A stretch of 39,523 nt of DNA from an uncultured Pelagibacteraceae bacterium. Lineage in GTDB: Bacteria; Pseudomonadota; Alphaproteobacteria; Pelagibacterales; Pelagibacteraceae. Below the pieces are notes generated by a model. It worked only from the letters and a program-made list of their open reading frames with translations. It ran no database searches and was not told the DNA's origin. Location: NCBI GenBank assembly GCA_902582475.1, contig CACHSH010000001.1:75857-115379 (forward strand), given 5' to 3'. Both the position numbers and the translations under genes were made by a program. Each line of letters starts with the position of its first letter. Position 1 is the first letter of the stretch. Shown here in pieces: positions 27,425-39,523 of the stretch.

Positions 27425-29569
27425 ATGAAAAAAATTAGCTTAAATAATTTGCAGATAAATGAAGATTTATTGCAATTTGTAAATGAAGAAGCCATTCCTG
27501 GAACAAATTTAGATATAAATAATTTTTGGAGAGATTTTGATGCAGCTGTCCATAAATTGGCGCCTATTAACAAAAAGTTATTAAAAAAAAGGGATGAGAT
27601 ACAAAAACAAATAGATGAATGGCACTTGTCTAAAAAAGTATCGGATTTTGAAAAAAAAGAATATATAAATTTTTTAAATTCAATTGGATATATTGCTAAA
27701 AATCAAGGAGACTTTAAAATTGAAACAACTAATGTAGATGAAGAAATCTCATCTATTGCAGGCCCCCAATTAGTCGTACCAGTAGATAATGCAAGATATG
27801 CTTTAAATGCAGCCAATGCTCGTTGGGGAAGTTTATATGATGCGGTCTATGGAACTGATGTAATACCAGGAGAAATAGGAAAAGCTTATAGCGAAGAAAG
27901 AGGAAAAAAAGTTATAAAATATGTTAGAGAATTCCTAGATGATATTTTTAAGATAAATGATGGTAGTTGGAAAGAAGTTACAAAAATTCAAATTAAGAAT
28001 AGTGAATTACAATTTTTAGTAGGAGATAAATTAGTATTCTTAGAAAATAAAAATCATTTTATAGGTTTTAACGGAAAAAAAGAAAGCCCTAGTTCAGTAT
28101 TATTAAAAAATAACAAGTTACATATTGATATCATTATTGATCCTAATAGCAGTGCAGGTAAATCCGATAAAGCAAATATATCAAATGTAATAGTTGAGTC
28201 TGCTGTATCAACAATTGTTGATAACGAAGACTCAGTAGCCGCGGTCGACTCGAGCGATAAAGTGAAGTGCTATAGAAACTGGCTTGGATTAATGAAGGGA
28301 AATTTGGAGGCTGAAGTTATTAAAAATAAGAAGAAATTTATTAGAAAATTAAACTCCGATAGGATTTATCAATCTCCAGATGGATCAAAGATTATTTTGC
28401 ATGGAAGAGCTCTCCTTCTTAACAGAAATGTGGGGCATTTAATGACTAATCCTGCAATAACCTTAAAAGATGGCACGGAAATACCAGAAGGTATAATGGA
28501 TGCTTTTATTTCTACTCTTTGTGCACTTCACGATTTTAAAAACAAAAAAAATTCAAGAACAGGATCAATGTATATTGTAAAGCCTAAGATGCATGGTCCT
28601 GATGAAGTGGGTTTTACTAATGATATTTTCGAAACAGTAGAAAAAGTATTGGGTTTAAAGAAATATTCAATCAAAGTTGGAATTATGGATGAGGAAAGAA
28701 GAACGACTGTTAATCTAAAAGAGTGTATTAGAAAAGTAAAAAATAGAGTTGTATTTATTAATACTGGTTTCTTAGATAGAACTGGTGATGAAATGCATAC
28801 CTCGTTTGAATCTGGTCCTATGATTTTTAAAGGAGAAATGAAAAAATCTACGTGGCTAAATACTTATGAGAACTGGAATGTTGATATTGGTTTAGAGTGT
28901 GGGTTTTCAGGAAAAGCTCAAATAGGAAAAGGAATGTGGGCTATGCCAGACAAAATGGCTGATATGATGGAGCAAAAAATTGGACATCCTAAATCAGGAG
29001 CTAATTGTGCTTGGGTCCCCTCACCAACTGCAGCTACTCTACACGCAACTCATTATCATAAAATCGATGTTTTTAAAAATCAGTCTGAAATAGTTTCTAG
29101 AAAAAAAGCTAAAATAGAAAATATTTTAGAAATTCCAAAAGCTGATAGACCAAACTGGTCAGTAGAAGATATTAATAAAGAATTAGAAAATAATGCACAG
29201 GGAATTTTAGGTTACGTTGTTAGATGGATTGATCAAGGGGTAGGATGTTCCAAGGTGCTTGATATAAAAAATGTTGGTTTAATGGAAGATAGAGCAACAT
29301 TAAGAATATCTTCTCAGCACATGGCTAATTGGTTGCACCATAATATTTGTACAAAAGATCAGGTTATGAAAGTAATGAAAAAAATGGCTGGAATTGTTGA
29401 CAAACAAAATTCTGATGACAAAAATTACAAGCCCATGGCACCAAATTTTGAAAGATCTATTGCTTTTATGACAGCTTGCGATCTAGTATTTAAGGGTCGA
29501 GAGCAACCTTCTGGATATACAGAACCTTTGTTACACAAAAGAAGATTGGAGAAAAAAGCTATTCGCTAG
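27425..29569 (+). CDS. glcB: Malate synthase G
   Basis: 714 residues from the ATG at 27425; an in-frame GTG 42 bases earlier adds residues unlike the family. It condenses glyoxylate and acetyl-CoA to malate. Motifs: [28 protein letters not shown] (start of that block near 119), [15 protein letters not shown], then [11 protein letters not shown] with the active-site Arg, [11 protein letters not shown], and a late [11 protein letters not shown] block. Length matches the G isoform, not the shorter A form. Divergent from accA; its end overlaps recR by 11 bases, tail to tail. Confidence 0.96.
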
Positions 29570-30167
29570 AAACTGGAATTCTATTTTTAAAAGCCGAAAC
29601 TAAAGTTCCATCATCTAGTTGTTCTATTTCGCCTCCTACAGGTAAACCTTGTCCAAGTTTAGAAATTTTAATTTTATCGTTTTTAATAACATCTTCAATA
29701 TAATGAGCGGTTGTTTGACCTTCGACAGTTGCACTAGTTGCAATAATTACTTCTTTTAGATTATTTTTTTTTACTCTATTTATTAGTGAGTCTATTAACA
29801 AATTTTTTTTTTCATATTTTTCATCAGAATTTAATGTGCCACCTAATATATGAAAATGTCCTTTAAAAATATTCGCAGATTCGATAACCCACATATCCGC
29901 TAGGTTTTCTACTACACAAATCTTATCATAATTCTTAGAGTCAGTTTCACATATACATTTTTGACTAACAACTTTAAGATTTCCACAATCATTACATCGA
30001 GAAACATTTTTATAAACATTTGCTAACAATTTAGCTAATGGCTTAATCATATTTTCTTTATTATTGATCAGTTTTAAAATTATTCTCTTTGCAGACTTTG
30101 GTCCAAGACCAGGTAGCTTAGAAAATTTTTTTATTAATTCATCTATTTCAGGTATGTTGTTATTCAT
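29559..30167 (-). CDS. recR: Recombination protein RecR
   Basis: 202 residues; acts with RecF/RecO in loading RecA at gaps. An N-terminal helix-hairpin-helix ([13 protein letters not shown], about 17-29) is followed by a four-Cys zinc finger (CNDC ... CIC) near 57-71, a Toprim domain starting [10 protein letters not shown], and the C-terminal [16 protein letters not shown]. Length is normal. Directly follows ybaB (TAA then ATG), giving the widespread dnaX-ybaB-recR order. Confidence 0.96.
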
Positions 30168-30491
30168 TTAAAATGGCAATTTAAAATCAACAGGCAAATT
30201 TGAAACCCCAGTAGCTTTTAAAAGTTCCTCTGAAGTTTTTTTTTTCAATTTTTCTCTGGCATCGTTATGCGCTGCAATAATTAAATCATTTATAATTTCC
30301 TCTTTTTCGCTTTTTGCCTTTGGATTTATTATTATTGATTTCATTTCATAATCGCCTTTAAGCACTACTTTAACTAAATCACCGCCCGCACTTCCTTCTA
30401 CTTCAATTTTTTTTAAATTATCTTGAACCTCTTTCATTTGTTCTTGCATTTTTTTTGCTTTAGATATCATGTCTGAAAAATCAGTCATCAT
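30168..30491 (-). CDS. ybaB: YbaB/EbfC family nucleoid-associated protein
   Basis: 107 residues; small dimeric DNA-binding protein. N-terminal coiled-coil segment ISKAKKMQEQMKEVQDNLKKI (start about 9), then the conserved VEGSAGGDLVKVVLKGDYEMKSI block. Start at 30491 overlaps the dnaX end by 11 bases; a GAGAGG ribosome site precedes it, and a second ATG directly follows. Between dnaX and recR, as in many bacteria. Confidence 0.93.
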   Translation of the reverse strand: MMTDFSDMISKAKKMQEQMKEVQDNLKKIEVEGSAGGDLVKVVLKGDYEMKSIIINPKAKSEKEEIINDLIIAAHNDAREKLKKKTSEELLKATGVSNLPVDFKLPF

Positions 30492-32163
30492 TACCTCTCA
30501 CATCTGTAAGATCGGCGTCGGGGAATACCTCCAAAATCTCTTTGTAAATCGGGTCTTCTTTCTGACGATCTAATAGTATTTTTTTTGTCTCAATTTTTTT
30601 TTCTTGTAATGTTTTTTCTCCTTTTTCTTTACTGAGAGTGATAATCCATCTTTTATTGGTCCATTTAAATAAGCTTTGTGAAAGCTTCTTAATAAAATCT
30701 TTTTTTAAGTTTTCGTTAAAATTTATGTCAATTTTTCCATATTCAAATCCAACAAGCTTAACGTTTCTTTCTAGATCGTACTTTAATTCCATATCTTTAT
30801 CTTTACCGGCCATAGCAACCAAATCAGAGAAAGATCTAACTTGAAAATCTTTTTTATCATTTAAGTCATTTTCTAAATTCTTGTCTTTAAAAACTTTTAC
30901 TTGTTCTACACTTTTTAACTGTTCTTTAGCAGGAGTTGTTACACTCGACTCCTTATTGTTTTCATCAATTTTTTTTTTATAGCTCATTGGATCACTGATT
31001 GGTGATTGTGGTGAGTTTTTAATTAATTCATTTTCCTCCATATCTTTGATGTGCATGAGTTGAATTAAATACATTTCTAAGGCAACTCTATCACTAGATA
31101 CAGTTTTTAAATCTTCAATAGTTTTAATAGTTAATTGCCAAAATAAACCTAGATCTTGATTGCTTAAACCTTGAACACTTTCTTCAACAAGTTTTAACTC
31201 ATTTTCAGAAATAAATAGATCTTTTTCTATGGCCCCAAGATTTATTCTTCTACTAAATAAATAAATGAGCTCTAAAATATCATTTAAGAATAATTTACCA
31301 TCTAATCCCTCATCAAAAATTTCTTTAAATTTTTTCAAAGCATTCTCTTCGTCACCAGTAAAAACACTTTGTAACAAATAAATTAACTTGGATTTATCGA
31401 CTAGTCCAAGCATTTTCCTAATATCTTTTTCGTCTATAATTTTGTTAATATTCAAAGTTTGAAAAATCAGAGCACGGTCAAGAAGGGAGATTGCATCTCT
31501 AACAGATCCCTCTGATGCTCTAGCCAAAAGATCAATGGCAAGATCAGATATTTTTCCTTCTTCTATTTCAGATATTTTTTTTAAATGATCTGAAATAATT
31601 TTTAAACTAACCCGTCTTAGATCAAATCTTTGGCATCTTGACAAAACTGTTATTGGGATCTTTCTAGCCTCTGTAGTAGCTAATATAAATTTTAGTTTTT
31701 CCGGCGGTTCCTCTAAAGTTTTTAACAAACCATTAAATGCTTGTTTTGATAGCATATGGACTTCATCTATAATAAATATTTTATATTTAGCGCTTGTAGG
31801 ATTATATTTTGAATTCTCAATCAGCTCTCTTACATCATCAATACCGGTTTTAGATGCCGCATCCATTTCAAGTACATCAATATGATTTGAGTTTTCAATT
31901 TCATTGCAATGATTGCAAACATCTTCTTTGTCACACATTTTATCAGTATTACTATTTTTAGAACAGTTTAGAGCTTTTGCAATTAAACGGGCCGTTGTTG
32001 TTTTTCCAACTCCCCTGATGCCTGTTAAAAGATATGCGTTGGGTGTCTTGTTTAATTTAATTGCATTAGAAATAGTTTCGGCCATTACTTCCTGACCAAT
32101 CAACTCTTTGAATGTTCTAGGCCTATATTTTAACGCTAAAATTTTTGATTTATTTTTGTTCAT
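30481..32163 (-). CDS. dnaX: DNA polymerase III subunits tau/gamma
   Basis: 560 residues; clamp-loader ATPase. N-terminus KYRPRTFKELIGQ, Walker A GIRGVGKTT (48-56), a zinc module with C67, C77, C83 and C86, Walker B IIDEVH (131-136) and sensor SRCQRF (175-180). Domain III ends near 365; a low-complexity linker and C-terminal tau part follow. Codons 396-398 lie in an A10 run where one lost or gained base leads to a stop after 407 or 399 residues. The ATG lies 6 bases after the SRP RNA, with no SD. Confidence 0.96.
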   Translation of the reverse strand: MNKNKSKILALKYRPRTFKELIGQEVMAETISNAIKLNKTPNAYLLTGIRGVGKTTTARLIAKALNCSKNSNTDKMCDKEDVCNHCNEIENSNHIDVLEMDAASKTGIDDVRELIENSKYNPTSAKYKIFIIDEVHMLSKQAFNGLLKTLEEPPEKLKFILATTEARKIPITVLSRCQRFDLRRVSLKIISDHLKKISEIEEGKISDLAIDLLARASEGSVRDAISLLDRALIFQTLNINKIIDEKDIRKMLGLVDKSKLIYLLQSVFTGDEENALKKFKEIFDEGLDGKLFLNDILELIYLFSRRINLGAIEKDLFISENELKLVEESVQGLSNQDLGLFWQLTIKTIEDLKTVSSDRVALEMYLIQLMHIKDMEENELIKNSPQSPISDPMSYKKKIDENNKESSVTTPAKEQLKSVEQVKVFKDKNLENDLNDKKDFQVRSFSDLVAMAGKDKDMELKYDLERNVKLVGFEYGKIDINFNENLKKDFIKKLSQSLFKWTNKRWIITLSKEKGEKTLQEKKIETKKILLDRQKEDPIYKEILEVFPDADLTDVRGNDD

Positions 32164-32169
32164 CGCTCA

Positions 32170-32258
32170 GGAGACCAAACAACCCGCTTTCAAAAGTTCG
32201 TGCTGCTGTTTTTACACCCTGACACAATAAACATATCGAAACCGCCTGAATGGCCTCC
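32170..32258 (-). ncRNA. ffs: Signal recognition particle RNA (4.5S, small bacterial type)
   Basis: About 89 bases. The ends GGAGGCCA and TGGTCTCC pair over 8 bp. The apical part has the conserved symmetric-loop sequences GTCAGG and GCAGCA flanking a short hairpin (TGT AAAA ACA), and GTG/CAC closes the loop below. The tip differs from the usual GGAA loop. It binds Ffh to form the SRP for membrane-protein targeting. A perfect TATAAT ends 5 bases before the first G. It precedes dnaX, as in other bacteria. Confidence 0.88.
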
Positions 32259-32263
32259 AAATT

Positions 32264-32294
32264 ATTATATCAATATCAAATTCAATTCTACAAG
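32264..32294 (-). promoter_or_regulatory. Promoter of the SRP RNA (and probably dnaX)
   Basis: On the minus strand a perfect -10 TATAAT (32269-32264) sits so that a start 6 bases later falls on the first G of the SRP RNA helix. A poorer -35 (TTGTAG) lies 18 bases upstream of it. It lies in the 58-base gap after pheA. Confidence 0.6.
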
Positions 32295-32316
32295 TCTGGA
32301 ATCTATGATTTGTGGA

Positions 32317-37567: not shown

Positions 37568-38065
37568 ATGAGTTGGACACACGAAAAAGAAGAAAAATTA
37601 AAGAAATTGTGGGAAAAAGGACATACTGCAAGCCAAATAGCAGAGATTCTTGGCGACACAACTAGAAACGCTGTAATTGGAAAAGCACATAGACTTAAGC
37701 TTGCGGCAAGAGCTACATCCAAAAGATCACAATCACAAAAAAGAGAAGTAACAACCAGTGAAAATAAAAGTGAGAAACAGATTAGTAGAAAAAGTAAATT
37801 TAAATCTATTCTTTTGGATAAAAACTTCGAGCCTGAAAACCCAAAAAAGTTAGAAGAGCTAGGGGATAAGAACTGTAGATGGCCCATAGGACACCCTGAC
37901 GAAGAGGGTTTTTATTTTTGTGGCAGATCTCCGATCGAAGGATTTTCTTATTGTAAATTACACGTGCTTTATGCATTCCAGCCTAAAAATCCTAAAGAAG
38001 ATCTGATAGATAAAGAGGATGATGTTCCAGCTTTTATAGAAAAGAAAGTTAAAGCTTCTAAGTAA
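37568..38065 (+). CDS. gcrA: GcrA family cell-cycle regulator
   Basis: 165 residues. The N-terminal helix-turn-helix MSWTHEKEEKLKKLWEKGH and RNAVIGKAHRLKL (residues 1-45) are the GcrA signature, followed by a charged low-complexity linker. A conserved C-terminal sigma-interaction part contains CRWPIGHPDEEGFYFCGR and a final YCKLHVLYA. In Caulobacter GcrA activates sigma-70 promoters, many with CcrM-methylated GANTC sites. Monocistronic; a palindrome precedes the ATG. Confidence 0.93.
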   Translation: MSWTHEKEEKLKKLWEKGHTASQIAEILGDTTRNAVIGKAHRLKLAARATSKRSQSQKREVTTSENKSEKQISRKSKFKSILLDKNFEPENPKKLEELGDKNCRWPIGHPDEEGFYFCGRSPIEGFSYCKLHVLYAFQPKNPKEDLIDKEDDVPAFIEKKVKASK

Positions 38066-38095
38066 TCCTTTAATAAAACCTTAACAATACTTTAA

Positions 38096-38110
38096 TATAA
38101 TAATCAGGAG
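38096..38110 (+). promoter_or_regulatory. -10 element and ribosome site of the small membrane gene
   Basis: TATAAT at 38096-38101 and AGGAG at 38106-38110, seven bases before the ATG at 38118. If TATAAT is the -10 the SD would be at the transcript start, so the true promoter may lie slightly upstream. It probably serves the gene run ending with the aquaporin. Confidence 0.35.
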
Positions 38111-38117
38111 AAAAAAT

Positions 38118-38345
38118 ATGAATAAAATAACTATAAAATATCTTAAATGGACAAGTACGTTTTTAACCTTGTTTGGAATATTAGCATTCTATTTAGATTA
38201 CTATCCTTACAGCATGATACCTCACGGACTTGGTATTATTGGATGGACAGTTGTAGGAACCATAACAAAGGATAAACCGTTACTTACAAACTTTGCATTG
38301 CAAATACCTATAATGTTTGCGGGTATAATAAAGTATTCGATATAG
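38118..38345 (+). CDS. Small hypothetical membrane protein
   Basis: 75 residues, not recognised. It has a hydrophobic helix at about 11-28, a second around 35-50 containing a Gly-rich HGLGIIGW segment, and a third short C-terminal one (60-74). Good ribosome site (AGGAG). Four bases separate its stop from the arsC ATG, so it is likely co-transcribed with arsC and the aquaporin. Whether it takes part in arsenic handling is unknown. Confidence 0.7.
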   Translation: MNKITIKYLKWTSTFLTLFGILAFYLDYYPYSMIPHGLGIIGWTVVGTITKDKPLLTNFALQIPIMFAGIIKYSI

Positions 38346-38349
38346 ATTT

Positions 38350-38784
38350 ATGAGGAATATTTTGTTTGTGTGCACAGGCAATTCAGCAAGAAGTATTCTT
38401 GCAGAAGCTTTGGTCAATAAAAATTATAGTTTAAAATTTAAAGCTTTTAGCGCAGGTAGCAATCCTACAGGGAAAATAAACCTTAATATAAAAAAATATT
38501 TAGAAAAAAAAAATTTTGATATATCAAATTATTCTTCAAAGAATTTTGACCAGTTTTTAAAAAATAAAATAAAAATTCATCAAGTTATAACAGTTTGTAA
38601 CAATGCCCATAATGAGGTCTGTCCGGTCTGGCCTGAAAAAAAAGATATAATTCATTGGGATATTGAAGACCCTGTTGAAAAAATTAAATCTGCTACTTCT
38701 GATACAGAGATTGAAAAAGTAATTGATGAAACTTATGAAATATTATCTAATAAGATTAAAGAATGGGTCTCAAATGAAGAATAA
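38350..38784 (+). CDS. arsC: Arsenate reductase, thioredoxin-coupled type
   Basis: 144 residues of the low-molecular-weight phosphatase fold. The P-loop CTGNSARS holds C8 and R14. The redox pair C83 and C91 in CNNAHNEVC matches the resolving cysteines of the S. aureus-type enzyme, and an acidic DIEDP segment follows. It reduces arsenate to arsenite. The 3' end overlaps the aquaporin start by 11 bases, so translation is coupled. Low-molecular-weight tyrosine phosphatase is the alternative, but these usually lack the cysteine pair. Confidence 0.88.
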   Translation: MRNILFVCTGNSARSILAEALVNKNYSLKFKAFSAGSNPTGKINLNIKKYLEKKNFDISNYSSKNFDQFLKNKIKIHQVITVCNNAHNEVCPVWPEKKDIIHWDIEDPVEKIKSATSDTEIEKVIDETYEILSNKIKEWVSNEE

Positions 38785-39427
38785 AATATTTGTTGGTGAA
38801 TTTATAGGAAGTTGTTTTTTAGTCATGATAATTGTTGGCTCAGGTTTAATGGCTGAAAACTTAAGTAATGACGTTGCTGTGATGTTAATTGCAAACACAA
38901 TAGCAACAGGAGCAGGTTTATTTGTGCTTATTACAGTATTTGCTGATGTATCAGGAGCTCACTTTAATCCATTTGTAAGTATTGCCATGACAATAACGGG
39001 AAAATTAAAAAAGAAACTGCTACCCTACTATATCATTGCTCAATTGATTGGTTGCTTGATTGGTGTTGGTTTAGCCAATTTCTTTTTTGAACATGACATT
39101 TATGAATTATCTACTAAATCAAGAGATGGAATTTACATATTCACATCTGAAGTAATAGCAACATTAGGGCTTATAATAATAATTTTTGGCTCTATGAAGT
39201 CAGGAAAAATTGCTGTTGCTGCTAGTGTTGGTCTTTATATTACAGCTGGTTACTGGTTTACTTCGTCTACTTCTTTTGCAAATCCAGCTGTTGCGATTGC
39301 TAGAACTTTTACAGAATCGTTTACTGGTATTAGTTATTTAAACACTCCTTATTATATCTTAGCTGAACTTGTAGGAATGTTAATTGCTGTATTTATTGTT
39401 AAAAAGTTATTTTTAGTGAAAAATTGA
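38774..39427 (+). CDS. aqpS: Aquaporin/MIP-family channel (AqpS-like)
   Basis: 217 residues from the ATG at 38774; an upstream in-frame extension is rejected since it lies within arsC and lacks family similarity. Six helices with two half-helices: the first motif reads SGAHFNPF (N65-P66-F67 in place of NPA) and the second SFANPAVAIART (N169-P170-A171). The coupling to arsC matches Sinorhizobium AqpS, where the channel lets arsenite leave the cell. Substrate here is inferred; general glycerol or water transport is not excluded. Confidence 0.87.
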   Translation: MKNKIFVGEFIGSCFLVMIIVGSGLMAENLSNDVAVMLIANTIATGAGLFVLITVFADVSGAHFNPFVSIAMTITGKLKKKLLPYYIIAQLIGCLIGVGLANFFFEHDIYELSTKSRDGIYIFTSEVIATLGLIIIIFGSMKSGKIAVAASVGLYITAGYWFTSSTSFANPAVAIARTFTESFTGISYLNTPYYILAELVGMLIAVFIVKKLFLVKN

Positions 39428-39523
39428 AAAATACAAAACTTGCCAATCGGATAAGTTTAATTAAAAAATATTAAAAATTTGTAAACTACAGGTTGTATAA
39501 AATTAACTTTTAGATTTATGAAT
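39428..39523 (+). other. Intergenic tail of the window
   Basis: No gene seen. Weak arms AAACTT and AAGTTT around 39440-39460 followed by an A-rich stretch do not make a convincing terminator. An ATG six bases from the edge cannot be assessed. Confidence 0.4.

Follow-up and report, generated by a model that had tools for sequence, protein, structure and literature searches.

Our study identified a run of ten adenines (A10) in the gene for the DNA polymerase III subunit gamma/tau (dnaX) of a SAR11 bacterium. It is probably a slippage-prone sequence that is tolerated since the truncated product would still be gamma-like, that is, a by-product of an A-rich genome and not a dedicated switch. The stretch analyzed here (the window, 39,523 nucleotides) comprises positions 75857-115379 of contig C1 in a 778-kb draft genome of 46 contigs, whose completeness is estimated at 62.7%. 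The best 80 matches to its dnaX are labelled Pelagibacteraceae or Candidatus Pelagibacter (SAR11), with the exception of seven that belong to other alphaproteobacteria. Several unrelated routes to a short form of DnaX are known, and the importance of this short form has long been disputed. If it were true that SAR11, some of the most numerous cells of the ocean, make gamma by means of a run that comes and goes, this would show how such mechanisms begin, with an accident that a linker can tolerate. For now, an A10 at the right place in a low-GC genome is weak evidence, and our study supplies controls for claims of this kind, namely synonymous shuffles, conserved KKK sites, and neighboring genes.

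The features of the locus are collected in Table 1. The ATPase, the lid, domain III, and the tau-specific C-terminal domain were all found in one dnaX ORF by Pfam and NCBIfam, which places the product in the DnaX gamma/tau family; it matches NCBIfam NF006585 with 604.3 bits against a cut-off of 604, and its residues 7-370 are matched by PDB chains named DNA polymerase III subunit tau/gamma. The linker between domain III and DUF3646 is weakly conserved in the conservation profile of DnaX, and the longest stretch of the predicted model with a pLDDT below 50 corresponds to residues 375-439 (the model was built from 27 sequences and its mean pLDDT of 68 is modest). The A10 run falls in this linker, where the plus strand of the window reads T10, so that the preliminary description was right both in its reading of codons 396-398 followed by ATT and in placing the run at the expected gamma/tau boundary, with domain III ending at residue 378 and DUF3646 starting at 443. 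It had also proposed that the loss or the gain of one A leads to products of 407 or 399 residues that lack the tau part but still have the ATPase and collar; the sequence gives precisely these lengths, and the Pfam domain limits agree. The predicted out-of-frame C-terminal residues of the slipped chains are KKKN or KKKLMKTIRSRV, and the stops in the two other frames lie at most 4 and 12 codons from the start of the run. The TGA is met immediately after a gained A because the residues [IF][DE] that follow the lysines are encoded as NTT GAN.

Table 1. Features of the dnaX region and of a second block in the window.
Feature	Position in window	Strand	Basis or remark
dnaX, DNA polymerase III subunit gamma/tau, 560 aa	30481..32163	minus	ORF
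Clamp-loader domain III (collar), residues 244-378	31030..31434	minus	PF12169, E 1e-30
Linker, residues 379-442, predicted disordered, poorly conserved	30838..31029	minus	gap between Pfam matches
A10 run, codons 396-398 (AAA AAA AAA) and first base of codon 399 (ATT)	30969..30978	minus	sequence
TGA met after one A gained or after a -1 ribosomal shift; 399-aa product	30965..30967	minus	derived by hand from sequence
TAA met after one A lost; 407-aa product	30939..30941	minus	derived by hand from sequence
Tau-specific C-terminal domain (DUF3646), residues 443-555	30499..30837	minus	PF12362, E 2.1e-32
ybaB (presumed), downstream of dnaX	30168-30491		
recR (presumed), after ybaB	29559-30167		
Low-molecular-weight phosphatase/arsenate reductase-like gene	38350-38784		PF01451
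Aquaporin-family gene	38726-39427		PF00230

The geometry of this site resembles that of Thermus thermophilus, whose dnaX undergoes transcriptional slippage on an A9 run as described in PMC1088944 and PMC5009743. Both genes are single ORFs with a sense-strand A run of at least nine, which in SAR11 lies between domain III and the tau-specific part, and both have nearby stops in the two other frames and a truncation that spares the clamp-loader part. A programmed slippage of the Thermus type, in which, among those members of the genus that keep the run, the RNA polymerase would slip on A10-A11 at a high rate and translation of indel mRNAs would supply gamma and tau in a useful proportion, agrees with the right place, the right length class, and the closeness of both stops, but on balance we consider it unlikely. 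Unlike in Thermus, the genome here has about 30% GC and A>=10 in a tenth of its genes, and the run is not conserved through the genus; in addition, the run lies about 70% into the SAR11 gene, compared with "seven-eighths" in Thermus (PMC1088944).

It is important to consider how common such runs are in these genomes. Our control genes were uncurated picks of ORFs no shorter than 100 aa, taken from parts of four genomes of the genus and grouped into families by reciprocal best hits. A sense-strand A>=10 is present in 39 of 382 genes of the window's genome, about half of which was sampled, and in 40/385, 42/339, and 19/390 genes of the other three, that is, in about 10% of the genes in three genomes and 5% in the fourth. 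When overlapping matches and both strands are counted, A10 occurs 146 times in the whole assembly, which bears out the earlier caution that long A runs are common here and that chance is possible, and AAA makes up about 86% of the lysine codons in the window's genome. Compared with synonymous shuffles within genes, A9 runs are in excess in the four genomes (116 vs. 104.7; 137 vs. 110.6; 117 vs. 104.8; 140 vs. 123.5) and runs of at least 11 are depleted (13 vs. 24.3; 12 vs. 22.5; 9 vs. 19.0; 7 vs. 30.9); therefore, A10 is not rare, and selection against A runs begins at about 10-11 A. In the window's genome, A9 is not avoided and A10 hardly so (34 vs. 37.5), which suggests weak slippage near such a length and argues against programming; the reasoning from unavoided A9 is that of PMC1088944, and its extension to A10 is ours. 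The positions of the stops are equally ordinary: both out-of-frame stops occur within 12 codons in 51.6% of 155 runs of A>=10 (four same-genus genomes, dnaX excluded) and in 48.7% of 636 runs of A>=9 outside dnaX. Both run length as the sole evidence for programming and the nearness of the two stops were dropped as arguments, since A10 is common and such stops are usual for these genomes, and the A10 run of the window, taken alone, is unremarkable.

One of the four genomes, G015 (stretches L121 and L191-L210), avoids A>=10 far more than its three congeners, with 21 runs observed against 72.1 expected, compared with 44-48 against 62-66; this suggests species differences in slippage or repair. 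The dnaX of G015 nonetheless has A11, and its other runs of A>=11 occur in genes that, judging by their translations, seem to encode ordinary enzymes and factors.

A search of the genus gave a match in 29 of 31 genomes, in two of these solely to a weak, shorter homologue, and the comparison at the site is based on the 26 same-genus dnaX genes that reach the linker. The run is A>=10 in 10 of them (A10 in G000 and G023, A11 in seven, and A14 in G020), a presence that speaks for programmed slippage; against it, 12 genes have A8 or less (A8 in two, fewer in ten), and A9 is found in the remaining four. Conservation of the run in relatives, which the preliminary description had proposed as a check, extends to the 14 of 26 genes with A>=9. 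That description had also named interruption by AAG in close relatives as evidence against slippage, which we observed in part: one KKK relative, G022, spells AAA AAG AAA, and in the remaining run-less genes the run has disappeared through changed residues, not through AAG. In a tree of DnaX residues 1-374, the sequences with A>=10 are spread over the two main branches of the genus, of which one has weak support (82/69), a distribution that would fit an old KKK lost repeatedly. The site ranges from A4 to A9 in 20 genes of the sister genus (g4), with A9 in one and A>=10 in none. The protein thus often retains two lysines irrespective of their DNA spelling, with G-K-K read in 10 of these 20 genes.

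Each of the 40 dnaX genes retrieved from other genera consists of one ORF, 556-567 codons long; one dnaX pair in the identity comparison stood at 0.30. The longest linker run among 130 dnaX genes of the family is at least 9 in 53 and at least 10 in 22, and 77 have none of A9 or more; this set no longer contains six rows whose cores were identical, the seven rows from outside SAR11, or partial genes other than L027 and L043, and it still includes close relatives. The run is therefore not maintained in relatives in the manner of a Thermus-type site, and a modest excess of A>=11 persists in the genus.

This excess was measured by synonymous shuffling of the linker. In a genus set of 16 sequences, from which near-copies had been removed by hand and G020 excluded, runs of at least 10 numbered 9 against 5.77 in the shuffles (P 0.026) and runs of at least 11 numbered 6 against 2.25 (P 0.003), the latter a point in favor of programmed slippage. 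Without dereplication, the values were 11 vs. 8.2 (P 0.085) and 7 vs. 2.9 (P 0.005), respectively, and for the whole dnaX of 15 genomes the excess was weaker (8 vs. 6.7 and 5 vs. 2.6 (P 0.08)). For the rest of the family (104 rows), linker runs of at least 9 numbered 48 against 35.9, with none of 200 shuffles as high; those of at least 10 numbered 17 against 14.74, and the lack of a clear excess at this length counts against programming. The A9 excess is also genome-wide, and A8 runs are in excess in the first 374 residues of DnaX as well, so the excess of short runs is not peculiar to the linker. These results provide a hint of retention in a genus linker that has not been purged of long runs, and positive retention of long runs there may have taken place.

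The second set of controls used seven KKK sites common to at least six genomes, in families around dnaX. All three codons are AAA in 8 of 9 cases in dnaX (a count that includes two near-copies), in 10 of 16 in ybaB, and in 8 of 76 at the other five sites together. The proportion in dnaX is near the expectation from codon usage without avoidance, about 0.63 per site (the cube of the AAA fraction), and a Fisher test of 9/10 in dnaX (G011 and G020 added, G012 left out) against 10/16 in ybaB gave P 0.19. Among nine dnaX KKK lineages, eight have a run of at least 10, compared with 0.415 of 142 other KKK[IF] sites (P 0.005), and six have one of at least 11, compared with 0.113 (P 0.0001); the closer context [TSVQ]KKK[IF], with 29 sites, gave P 0.009 and 0.001, respectively. 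These longer runs also speak for programmed slippage, although the binomial tests treat partly related lineages as independent at a site picked post hoc and are indications only. At 35 KKK sites of small families (at least three genomes each), all-AAA spelling was found in 45 of 122 cases, and two of the sites have at least 10 A in all their genomes (3/3 and 5/5, the latter with near-identical DNA). A gene that looks like ppx/gppA (L120:18385-19890 in G019) has A11-12 in 5 of 5 genomes, with near-identical DNA around the run.

The genes downstream of dnaX, presumably ybaB and recR to judge from the usual order dnaX-ybaB-recR and the translations of the window, carry comparable runs. Among 21 genomes of the genus, A>=10 is present in 10 ybaB (A10-11), 5 recR (A10), and 8 dnaX genes, and the ybaB runs equal the shuffle expectation (7 vs. 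6.9). The A10 runs kept by these neighbors stand against programming in dnaX. Run conservation was dropped as a proof, given that ybaB and recR also keep such runs and that many dnaX genes lost theirs. We also observed that the KKK near the C-terminus of ybaB is spelled all-AAA, unlike every other deeply sampled KKK site except that of dnaX. Long runs are thus not avoided evenly, and the presence of one in a flexible linker does not call for a dedicated function.

Relaxed avoidance is the simplest reading that fits both sets of controls. Under the tolerance that we favor, the run is how a short lysine-rich linker motif (KKK, then I/F and D/E) comes to be encoded in this genome. AAG usually breaks such a run at the other deeply sampled KKK sites, ybaB excepted, and does not do so in dnaX, where the run has most likely been left unbroken because slippage there is cheap, the short product being gamma-like. 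An indel transcript would give a protein of 399 or 407 residues that retains the whole ATPase and collar, with tau expected as the main product and the gamma-like chains from slipped transcripts forming a variable, unregulated minority. The sequences show the run, its place, the two products that it would give, its patchy conservation, and the lack of avoidance; we infer that slippage occurs at the run, that dedicated regulation is absent, and that the short chain is stable and does no harm. Against tolerance we count the linker excess of A>=10 and A>=11 in the genus, that of A>=9 in the rest of the family (qualified by the genome-wide A9 excess), the run in both branches, and the A11 of G015, and dedicated programming in part of the genus is possible.

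Special attention was given to routes that do not involve the RNA polymerase. An E. coli-type -1 ribosomal frameshift would take place at A_AAA_AAA, and as in E. coli dnaX the shifted frame would stop at once, here at the TGA that yields a 399-residue gamma. The register of the heptamer A AAA AAA suits such a shift; unlike E. coli, however, the run (AAA AAA AAA ATT) lacks the A_AAA_AAG slippery site, and no stimulators of frameshifting were found, neither an element resembling a Shine-Dalgarno sequence within 36 bases upstream (absent from the window and from 24 of 26 rows) nor a structure in the 109 nt downstream, whose fold (z -0.38) is no better than shuffles. Considering as well that, according to PMC5009743, A_AAA_AAA shifts far less readily in E. 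coli than A_AAA_AAG does, we find this mechanism highly improbable.

Like SAR11, Caulobacter belongs to the alphaproteobacteria, and its DnaX has the PF12362 C-terminal domain that is also matched in the DnaX of the window. Any short SAR11 DnaX might be tau trimmed by ClpXP, as in Caulobacter, with no part played by the run. ClpXP produces the short forms gamma1 and gamma2 in that organism (PMC5422525; short forms made by ClpXP are also described in PMC5009743 and PMC7566177); therefore, a SAR11 gamma, if any, need not stem from the run, and run-less relatives would retain a route to it. This processing is post-translational, and nothing about it can be read from the DNA of the window. No reports of SAR11 DnaX processing were found in the literature searched, and we judge trimming to be rather improbable. 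Titles and abstract openings in a partial collection likewise yielded no published work on a dnaX run in SAR11 or Pelagibacter.

A special case is G020 (L027, G020:C34), whose A14 run starts at locus base 2678 and whose ORF ends soon after; the DNA beyond reads as tau linker in another frame, and the contig stops 138 bases past the A14. If the A14 is real, gamma would be the in-frame product and tau would need slippage. As a homopolymer near the end of a draft contig in one assembly, it is weak evidence. The architecture is that of the two-ORF class described in the GeneTack survey (PMC3711429), where tau requires a frame change in 17 dnaX genes, nine of them with A10; the dnaX of the window is, unlike these, in frame. 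Blochmannia, with a reduced low-GC genome too, has a dnaX frameshifted in a homopolymer, and slippage-dependent tau has been proposed for it (PMC3017870). It is conceivable, and in our judgment decidedly improbable, that part of the genus makes gamma by slippage at a linker run that turns over between species and that G020 has flipped to the reverse architecture, which would amount to repeated switching between dnaX architectures within one genus.

Two other parts of the window were also considered. Positions 32164-32316 separate dnaX from a pheA-like gene; in Pelagibacter ubique HTCC1062, a table in PMC2704228 places the SRP RNA between pheA and dnaX. An Rfam scan of the window at gathering scores returned only tRNA and no SRP RNA, and the SRP RNA of this genome may be elsewhere, diverged, or missed by the scan. 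The Rfam scan of dnaX gave a single miRNA match, discarded as chance level (E 0.93). At about 38030-39523, up to the contig end, we identified a block that includes the phosphatase and aquaporin genes of Table 1 and whose DNA is about 99% identical in nine other same-genus genomes, some of them near-copies; three more genomes share it up to 38813 only and three its first 260-310 bases only, and the neighboring genes are about 71-91% identical. An A10 run present in 13/13 genomes in the phosphatase gene was rejected as a control because the comparison is unfair, this gene being 98-99% identical between genomes. The pattern suggests a recent genus-wide sweep or transfer of the block, and arsenic as the reason for its spread is a guess.
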